The notes below the pieces were generated by a model. The model ran no database searches. It was not told where the DNA came from and was given only the letters and a program-made list of their open reading frames with translations. Position numbers and translations under genes: made by a program. From Meiothermus cerbereus DSM 11376 (lineage in GTDB: Bacteria > Deinococcota > Deinococci > Deinococcales > Thermaceae): 64,000 bases of DNA. Below are positions 45,816-49,317 of the stretch, in pieces; position 1 is the stretch's first letter; each line of letters opens with the position of its first letter. Location of the stretch: contig NZ_KK211062.1 in the NCBI RefSeq assembly GCF_000620065.1, positions 62,001 through 126,000 of the forward strand, read 5' to 3'.

Positions 45816-47827
<2,012 letters not shown>

Positions 47828-47872
47828 GGGTTCCTCTCGCAACTTGGATTGAGCTTGGGTTCGCTATACAAC

Positions 47873-47898
47873 AAAAAACTCGAGGTCTTCGCCTCGAG
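47873..47898 (-). terminator. attenuator terminator of the trpBA leader
   Basis: On the minus strand a 7-bp stem, CTCGAGG with CCTCGAG, has a 6-nt loop and is followed by TTTTTT. It lies 38 nt after the leader peptide stop and about 45 nt before trpB. Confidence 0.85.
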
Positions 47899-47902
47899 AA
47901 AA

Positions 47903-47936
47903 GCCCCGGCGCGGGAAACTGACACCGCGCAAGGGC
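47903..47936 (-). other. leader hairpin between trpL and the terminator
   Basis: On the minus strand GCGCGG pairs with CCGCGC across a loop, and an outer GCCC can pair with GGGC next to the terminator stem. It is a candidate pause or antiterminator structure. I cannot fold it properly by eye. Confidence 0.4.
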
Positions 47937-47996
47937 TCAGCAACGCCACCAGCGCTGGTGGTGCCACTTGTAGCTGCGGGGGGTACGGGGCCGCAT
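47937..47996 (-). CDS. trpL: trp leader peptide, 19 residues
   Basis: A short frame from ATG at 47996 to TGA at 47937 ends KWHHQRWWRC. It has three Trp codons (TGG, then TGG TGG in tandem) in 19 codons, in a genome where Trp is rare, and it lies directly between a good promoter and an intrinsic terminator before trpB. The second and third Trp codons lie within a perfect palindrome, CCACCAGC-GCTGGTGG. This is the arrangement of enterobacterial trpL: a ribosome stalled for lack of Trp-tRNA changes the fold of the leader and prevents termination. The ATG is about 2 nt from the expected transcript start, so it is leaderless or nearly so. Confidence 0.85.
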   Translation of the reverse strand: MRPRTPRSYKWHHQRWWRC

Positions 47997-48005
47997 GTTG
48001 TTCAA

Positions 48006-48034
48006 AGGGTAGCAAGCCCCCGGGCTTCCGTCAA
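48006..48034 (-). promoter_or_regulatory. trp operon promoter
   Basis: TTGACG (48029-48034), a 17-nt spacer and TACCCT (48006-48011). The spacer contains a palindrome, AAGCCCGGGGGCTT (48014-48027), that could be a repressor site. Confidence 0.75.
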
Positions 48035-48087: not shown

Positions 48088-49317
48088 ATGGAAGCGTTTG
48101 AACACTACCTCGATCAGATGGCAAAAGTAGCCGTACAGGTGGGGCTGGGGCTCCAGGAGGGCCAGGAGCTGGTCATCACTGCTCCGATAGAGGCCGTGCC
48201 GCTGGTGCGAAAAATTACCGAATACGCCTATAAAGCCGGTAGCCCCCTGGTCAGCGTGCTCTACGACGACGACGCAGCCCACCTGCTGCGCTTTCAACAC
48301 GCTCCCGAGGCCTCCTTCGACACCGCACCCAAGTGGCTCTACGACGGCATGGCCGAGGCTTTCCAGGCTGGAGCGGCCCGCCTGCACATCGCTGGCAACG
48401 ACCCCAGCCTGCTTAAGGGTCAGAACCCAGAGCGGGTGGCCCGGGCCAACCACGCCCGCTCGCTGGCCTACCGGCGGGTATTGGAGCTCATCGCCAGCCA
48501 CCACATCAACTGGAGCATTGTGGCCTACCCCCATCCGGCCTGGGCCAGGGCGGTTTTTCCAGATAGCGACGAGCAGGAAGCGGTAAAAAAGCTGTGGGAG
48601 GCCATTTTCAAAGCCTCGAGGCTCGATTCACCCGATCCCGTAGCCTCCTGGAAAGCCCACAACCAGTACCTCGCCGAGCGCGTGGCCTACCTGAATCACA
48701 AGCGCTACCACGCCCTGCACTTCAAAGGTCCCGGCACCGATCTGCTGGTGGGCCTGGCCGATGATCACCTCTGGGCCGGTGGTGCGACCCGGGCCAAGAA
48801 TGGCGTGGTCTGCAACCCCAACATCCCCACCGAGGAGGTCTTCACCACGCCCCATAAAGACCGCATTGAGGGCTATGTGCGTAGCACCAAGCCCCTCTCC
48901 TATTTGGGCAGCCTCTTAGAGGACATCGAGATGCGCTTCGAAAAAGGCCGCGTAGTCGAGGCCAGAGCCAAAAGCGGGGCCGATGTGCTGAACCGGGTAC
49001 TGCAAACCGATGAAGGCGCGCGTAGCCTGGGCGAGGTGGCCCTGGTGCCGCACTCCTCCCCCATCGCGCAAAGCGGCCTTCTGTTTTACAACACCCTCTT
49101 CGACGAGAATGCCGCCAGTCACGTCGCGCTGGGGCAGGCCTACAGCGAGTGCATTCGGGGTGGGAGCCAGCTAAGCCCCGAAGAACTCGCGGCCAAAGGT
49201 GCCAACCGCAGCCTCATCCACATCGACTGGATGATTGGCTCTGGAGAAATAGACGTAGACGGCATTACCGCCTCCGGGCAGGCCGAGCCCCTGATGCGTA
49301 AGGGCGAGTGGGTTTAG
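48088..49317 (+). CDS. M29 family aminopeptidase (thermophilic aminopeptidase T type)
   Basis: A 409-residue cytosolic metallopeptidase that removes N-terminal residues. The M29 metal ligands are visible in the C-terminal domain: Glu in SLGEVALVPHSSP, Glu in FDENAASH with the following His, and HIDWMIG, which gives the His and Asp. The N-terminal half forms the dimer and gating domain. Length and motifs match aminopeptidase T of Thermus aquaticus. It is divergent from trpL-trpB with about 50 nt between the promoters. It has no Shine-Dalgarno sequence, consistent with the TAGAGT box just upstream. Confidence 0.93.
   Translation: MEAFEHYLDQMAKVAVQVGLGLQEGQELVITAPIEAVPLVRKITEYAYKAGSPLVSVLYDDDAAHLLRFQHAPEASFDTAPKWLYDGMAEAFQAGAARLHIAGNDPSLLKGQNPERVARANHARSLAYRRVLELIASHHINWSIVAYPHPAWARAVFPDSDEQEAVKKLWEAIFKASRLDSPDPVASWKAHNQYLAERVAYLNHKRYHALHFKGPGTDLLVGLADDHLWAGGATRAKNGVVCNPNIPTEEVFTTPHKDRIEGYVRSTKPLSYLGSLLEDIEMRFEKGRVVEARAKSGADVLNRVLQTDEGARSLGEVALVPHSSPIAQSGLLFYNTLFDENAASHVALGQAYSECIRGGSQLSPEELAAKGANRSLIHIDWMIGSGEIDVDGITASGQAEPLMRKGEWV

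Follow-up and report, generated by a model that had tools for sequence, protein, structure and literature searches.

A conserved, putatively leaderless leader peptide ahead of trpBA in Meiothermus and other Deinococcota suggests a role for the peptide itself in tryptophan synthase control

The window analyzed here is a 64,000-nucleotide (nt) stretch of the Meiothermus cerbereus DSM 11376 genome (contig NZ_KK211062.1, positions 62,001 to 126,000), and its subject is a short leader open reading frame (ORF) ahead of the tryptophan (Trp) synthase genes. All parts of the locus lie on the minus strand. A -35 element, TTGACG (48029..48034), is followed after a 17-nt spacer by a -10 element, TACCCT (48006..48011), which stands 9 nt 5' of the leader ATG at 47996 and is identified by conservation of the pattern TANNNT; TTG is found 15-19 nt 5' of the -10 in 62 of 79 trpB leaders. 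The leader ORF (47937..47996) matches the leader profile in its own genome with an E value of 5e-10. It encodes MRPRTPRSYKWHHQRWWRC, with the conserved core RxRTPRxYKxxHQRW, in 19 codons and a stop (ATG CGG CCC CGT ACC CCC CGC AGC TAC AAG TGG CAC CAC CAG CGC TGG TGG CGT TGC TGA), and codons 11, 16, and 17 specify Trp. Three consecutive hairpins accompany this frame. Hairpin P, supported by folding, is the 16-nt palindrome CCACCAGCGCTGGTGG within codons 12-17 (His-Gln-Arg-Trp-Trp; 47946..47961). Hairpin A, the putative protector with arms a and b (47901..47938), begins 58 nt from the AUG and is followed by UUUU. Terminator T, an intrinsic terminator with arms c and d (CTCGAGG-CGAAGA-CCTCGAG-TTTTTT; 47873..47898), combines a perfect stem (47879-47898) with six T residues (47873-47878). 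Beyond it come the trpB Shine-Dalgarno sequence (GAGGAA region, 47832..47837), with GAGAGGAA ahead of the trpB start at 47827, trpB itself (tryptophan synthase beta chain, 46604..47827), and trpA (45816..46607), which overlaps trpB through ATGA and is named from its sequence and position. The 3.03-Mb genome holds one full-length trpB, whose relatives are about 70-95% identical throughout the phylum. This anatomy bears out every observed detail of a first-pass annotation of the window, which had read here a TTGACG-17-TACCCT promoter within about 9 nt of a 19-codon frame with three TGG codons (two in tandem), then a hairpin region, a perfect terminator with six T residues, and trpB with its own ribosome site, the second and third Trp codons lying inside a 16-bp palindrome.

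The leader is ancient and widespread in the phylum. A six-frame search of 111 Deinococcota genomes with a profile of the 18-residue leader core found it in 82, distributed over Meiothermus, Calidithermus, Thermus, Marinithermaceae-like genomes, and Trueperaceae (family labels not taken from record titles, such as Marinithermaceae-like, are guesses). Each of the 82 has one profile match apart from two, one with a weak second match and the other a metagenome-assembled genome in which two contigs carry the same leader; this search revealed essentially no second copy and no different target gene elsewhere in the genomes. The reading of trpB upstream regions covered 50 genomes from the family plus about 50 others from the order, and the leader stands directly ahead of trpB wherever its context was read. 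The sole other setting is in genome G096 (L228, reverse strand), where the leader heads the operon and a transporter gene, which we take to be of the EamA type, is inserted ahead of trpB; this gene might encode an exporter of Trp or aromatic compounds that is regulated together with trpB. A degenerate DNA pattern for [RS]TPxx[YF]KWxH, which requires Trp11, was also scanned against 84,980 species. It returned 24 matching stretches, all in Deinococcota, with about 2 expected by chance from the information content of the pattern, and the relatives it named as carrying this leader are Meiothermus, Calidithermus, Thermus, and Trueperaceae. No Deinococcus matched this pattern, Trp11 being required, and no identifiable Deinococcus was among the 111 genomes searched with the profile. 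Because the leader, the layout with a promoter at the ATG, and the trpB neighbor recur across the phylum, the observation is not a chance one. Searches for a known family found no NCBIfam, Rfam, or PDB match for the leader, and the Pfam match was below threshold (E 0.11).

The trpB leaders also share their start layout. All 79 have TANNNT 4-10 nt 5' of the start codon (5% in shuffled DNA), and none of the 79 has a Shine-Dalgarno-like motif ahead of it. The leaderless pattern of Deinococcota (PMC12340547), in which a -10 element lies a few nt 5' of the start codon and a Shine-Dalgarno sequence is missing, is matched by the trpB leaders on both features. Their mRNAs are predicted to start leaderless, with the 5' end at or near the AUG, in line with the first-pass proposal that the message has almost no 5' leader of its own.

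The conservation of the peptide suggests a role for it. Across the non-Thermus leaders (n=59), which follow the consensus R-x-R-T-P-R-x-[YF]-K-x-x-H-Q-R-W, R4, T5, and K10 are present in 59/59, P6, R7, and R2 in 58/59, H13 in 54, Q14 in 52, and W16 in 49. Selection of the leaders used the loose expression R-T-P-x-x-[YF]-K, and part of the conservation at those positions therefore stems from the selection itself; R2, R7, H13, Q14, and W16 lie outside it, and the profile search had no such rule. The ratio of nonsynonymous to synonymous differences per site (pN/pS) is 0.14 in Meiothermus and 0.28 within Trueperaceae, with pS at 0.4-0.6. Between groups pN/pS mostly lies at 0.07-0.47, rising to 0.55-0.89 against Thermus, whose core differs. 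An effect at the RNA level was considered as the source of the conservation and is ruled out, as synonymous sites vary freely. The core is fixed in length and ends at position 16, with variable flanks on either side, as would be expected if a ribosome were held near codons 16-17. Conserved, non-decoded residues in a fixed-length core are what characterizes nascent-chain arrest peptides of the TnaC/SecM class, and the trpB leader has them. A short Trp-codon leader before trp genes, as in a classical attenuator, is present as well, with selection pointing to its translation; conservation of the regulatory codons only, also typical of such attenuators, is not what the trpB leader displays.

A second leaderless trp leader in the same genome serves as an internal control. 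It encodes MLRFAHVKGWWWPG, is followed by a terminator, and lies on the reverse strand of contig C3 (L157), about 118 nt ahead of the start of the trpE match. Among the trpE leaders of 44 Thermaceae and Marinithermaceae-like genomes, two Trp residues are each kept in 44/44, Pro in 41, and Gly in 39, a Pro-Gly-stop being retained after the Trp run (WW(W)PG). The other codons drift, with pN/pS of 0.71 in Meiothermus, 1.6 in Thermus, and 1.8 in the Marinithermaceae-like group. By its sequence, the trpE leader is a classical codon-counting attenuator. It shares with the trpB leader the leaderless start, the Trp codons, the terminator, and the organism, but only WWPG is conserved in it while the trpB leader keeps its whole peptide, which argues that the trpB leader is not merely a counter of Trp codons.

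The Trp codons of the trpB leader are less constant than this peptide frame. At least one is present in 59/59 non-Thermus leaders; position 11 holds W in 34 of these and R, I, V, or H in the rest, position 16 is W in 49 and F or G in 10, and many leaders finish with HQRW before the stop, leaving a single Trp at 16. In Thermus the core has drifted to RTPFA[FY]K[WR]RHGRYR, and 7/20 leaders are free of Trp. The eight Thermus leaders without Trp in the core still give pN/pS 0.17 with pS 0.43. An alignment of trpB upstream regions in relatives had been proposed as a check on the Trp-codon leader; the leader frame is indeed kept, but Trp11 proved replaceable and the Trp-free Thermus leaders depart from the expectation. 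Six Thermus leaders read ...YKWRHGRYRP(S) before the stop codon, a loose likeness, with different spacing, to the K-W...R-P-stop of TnaC that may be coincidence.

Loss of the leader and other candidate elements were also seen around trpB. In six Thermus genomes and one of a neighboring genus the leader is frameshifted or absent. Thermus has a conserved second promoter-like TAGGAT no more than about 60 nt from the trpB start (at four loci, for example), followed by a GGCGC..GCGCC hairpin and a T run directly 5' of the trpB Shine-Dalgarno sequence; TAGGAT is the only remaining promoter-like element in two of the genomes that lost the leader. At ten loci from three family groups, TAGACA...TGTCTA-like palindromes or repeats lie over the trpB promoter, in genomes that lack the leader and in a few that have it. 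These sites suggest a DNA-binding repressor as an alternative form of trpBA control. In the window itself, a divergent plus-strand gene (48088-49317), presumably an M29-type aminopeptidase from its resemblance, shares the intergenic region with the leader and starts about 54 nt from the leader -35.

The Meiothermus leader RNA is highly structured, folding better than all 200 shuffles (z -3.5). Hairpin P is invariant in the genus and is largely a product of the conserved codons. Hairpin A has compensatory changes in 5/12 pairs across 12 Meiothermus leaders, matched by 0/500 shuffles and abolished by sliding the partners, and is a genuine conserved structure. Among the leaders with a matched terminator, all but one, which lacks hairpin A, have its start 58-59 nt from the AUG, wherever in the range 57-72 the stop codon falls; Trp17 and not the stop therefore fixes the register of hairpin A. 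The first-pass annotation had likened the layout to enterobacterial attenuation. The three consecutive hairpins do not form the enterobacterial 1:2/2:3/3:4 arrangement, and the sole alternative fold that can be drawn is kinetic and his-like, with arm a masked and b free to pair with c. Equilibrium folding was rejected as a test of attenuation because the E. coli trpL terminator behaves like T, which forms at about 0.9 or more at nearly all ribosome positions, with local dips. A kinetic proxy, in which folding is limited to the RNA that precedes the last arm, reproduces the E. coli trpL switch (region 3 sequestered 0.62 at the Trp codons and 0.02 at the stop). With the same proxy, pairing of the Meiothermus arm c before d is made is 0.02-0.09 when the first uncovered nt is 56-60 and 0.54-0.7 once it reaches 62 or beyond, as the ribosome then masks arm a of hairpin A. 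A ribosome of the usual footprint leaves about nt 58 as the first free nt when Trp16 is in the A site and about nt 61 for Trp17, with an uncertainty of 2-3 nt. A ribosome at Trp17 or just past it would favor read-through and one at Trp16 would not, a consistent geometry and not proof of a switch.

Termination differs between families. An intrinsic terminator between leader and trpB is present in Meiothermus and near relatives; no convincing one was found there in Marinithermaceae-like and Trueperaceae genomes, where the gap shrinks to as little as 43 nt. The intrinsic terminator looks to be a Thermaceae add-on. The idea of Trp-codon leader attenuation, as first put forward, is partly supported: its leaderless Trp leader ORF, hairpins, and terminator stand, but the defining conserved feature is the peptide and not a Trp run, and the terminator seems confined to Thermaceae. 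Occlusion of the Shine-Dalgarno sequence as the switch in the terminator-less families was tried and rejected, as accessibility is flat across ribosome positions. Trueperaceae spacers have an excess of C over G (median at the 96th percentile of local background windows). A Rho site lies directly after the TnaC leader (PMC8429421), and by analogy the C-rich Trueperaceae spacer would fit Rho loading.

The reading to which these observations lead is that the leaderless trpBA leader ORF encodes a nascent peptide, RxRTPRxYKxxHQRW, that acts in cis in the ribosome tunnel, to which we assign a probability of roughly 0.5. The ORF, the promoter at the AUG, the place before trpB, selection at the amino-acid level, and hairpin A and the terminator in Meiothermus form its established part. 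By this model, 70S ribosomes would initiate at the 5' AUG, and the basic and aromatic chain would slow or sensitize the ribosome on its arrival at the Trp16(-Trp17) codons. A shortage of Trp or charged tRNA-Trp would hold the ribosome there; at Trp17 or just past, it would cover arm a of hairpin A, arm b would capture arm c before d is made, T would fail, and trpBA would be transcribed. When Trp is plentiful, the ribosome would run through and depart, A and T would form, and transcription would stop. In the Marinithermaceae-like and Trueperaceae genomes a held ribosome would work through a different terminator, in the simplest case by masking a Rho loading site as with TnaC, so that one peptide would be plugged into different termination devices. 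A wider and more tentative version, held at somewhat under even odds, would make this a phylum-old arrest peptide for tryptophan synthase that senses Trp supply and is coupled to intrinsic terminators in Meiothermus or probably to Rho in Trueperaceae, with Thermus having lost the Trp codons and kept the peptide.

Several points weigh against the model. In it stalling, the nature of its signal (charged tRNA-Trp, free Trp, indole, or another), and which way control runs are all putative, and Trp decoding is excluded as the signal in the seven Trp-free Thermus leaders because there is no Trp codon in them. Trp16 in the A site (~58) leaves hairpin A intact, and only Trp17 or a later position opens it. 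The proposed check for competing antiterminator and terminator folds had a mixed outcome: the kinetic proxy places the switch at Trp17, yet b:c pairing makes a weak antiterminator (roughly -4 to -9 kcal/mol vs -10 to -15 for T) and equilibrium folding is not diagnostic. Shuffled RNA pairs with arm c about equally (0.55-0.6), so only the protected state with A formed is clearly nonrandom. The role of Rho is drawn from base composition, and the C-G excess in the Marinithermaceae-like group is weak (mean 0.12, median 61st percentile).

The nearest rival is ordinary TrpL-type attenuation on a leaderless mRNA, in which Trp codons are counted and nothing depends on the sequence of the peptide itself. 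It is a serious rival in Meiothermus, where three Trp codons, hairpins, and a terminator are all in place and the switch point of hairpin A falls at Trp16/17; the constant presence of Trp outside Thermus and the clear example before trpE in the same genomes speak for it too. Taken over the whole data set it is rather unlikely, as non-Trp residues are conserved across families amid free synonymous change, opposite to the trpE leaders, Trp11 gives way to R, I, V, or H and many leaders carry just one Trp, constraint persists in the Thermus leaders free of Trp, and two families have no terminator.

Selection on the peptide, even where Thermus has no Trp, would equally suit a free micropeptide acting in trans on TrpB, RNA, or the ribosome, like peTrpL, with the strong Meiothermus terminator ending its own short mRNA; the second promoter-like TAGGAT between leader and trpB in Thermus also speaks for it. 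This seems improbable given the fixed place just 5' of trpB in all genomes read, with no free-standing copy, and no terminator separating leader from trpB in Trueperaceae and Marinithermaceae-like genomes; in one genome the T tract abuts the trpB Shine-Dalgarno sequence, leaving no space for a further promoter. For Thermus alone, frameshifted or absent leaders in several genomes and the loss of most Trp codons invite the view that the leader is a decaying remnant, which looks conserved owing to recent common ancestry and overlapping signals. That view is the most doubtful, as it must contend with the low pN/pS at substantial pS among leaders without a core Trp and with a promoter kept at the ATG in all leaders found, and it is inapplicable to the window's own genus.

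Known Trp leaders are codon counters (TrpL) or ligand-sensing arrest peptides (TnaC). Like the trpB leader, the E. coli trpL system (Rfam Trp_leader type) has tandem Trp codons in a short leader ORF, hairpins that depend on one another, and an intrinsic terminator before trp genes; the trpB leader differs in its conserved peptide sequence, leaderless start, protector hairpin 3' of the Trp codons, and lack of an Rfam match. Mycobacteria have leaderless polycysteine attenuators, and the cysteine leaders of Actinobacteria, including mycobacteria, keep a run of the regulatory codon. Cysteine-operon leader peptides in Actinobacteria (PMC1262725) are likewise conserved leader ORFs before an amino-acid operon, often missing a terminator and with Rho suggested, although the amino acid and the phylum are different. 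TnaC of the tna operon (PMC8429421) is also a conserved leader peptide in which residues that are not being decoded play a part, and the Rho site after it is comparable to the C-rich Trueperaceae spacers. No sequence homology to TnaC is detectable (no PDB chain match), and the TnaC motif (W12, D16, and P24 with the stop, before tnaA) is not shared, as the trpB leader core has no conserved Asp or terminal Pro and precedes trpB. The response to Trp is expected to be opposite to that of TnaC because the trpB leader precedes the biosynthetic trpBA. The trp leader peptide peTrpL of Sinorhizobium meliloti has a proposed function of its own (PMC7298713); no sequence similarity to it was seen, and for the trpB leader action in trans seems improbable. 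A search of the open-access literature turned up no account of trp attenuation for either Thermus or Meiothermus.

The trpB leader unites Trp codons with strict peptide conservation across much of a deep-branching phylum, on mRNAs predicted to have no 5' leader. Natural variants are at hand with three, two, one, or no Trp codons, with or without a terminator, and with the leader lost, and the trpE leader of the same cell is a built-in control for testing how far the ribosome is governed by peptide sequence and how far by codon supply. Thermus ribosomes are a standard for structural work, so that a stalled complex could be viewed directly. The pattern of conservation suggests that the peptide itself, beyond its Trp codons, may have a part in the ribosome's decision to turn trpBA on or leave it off.
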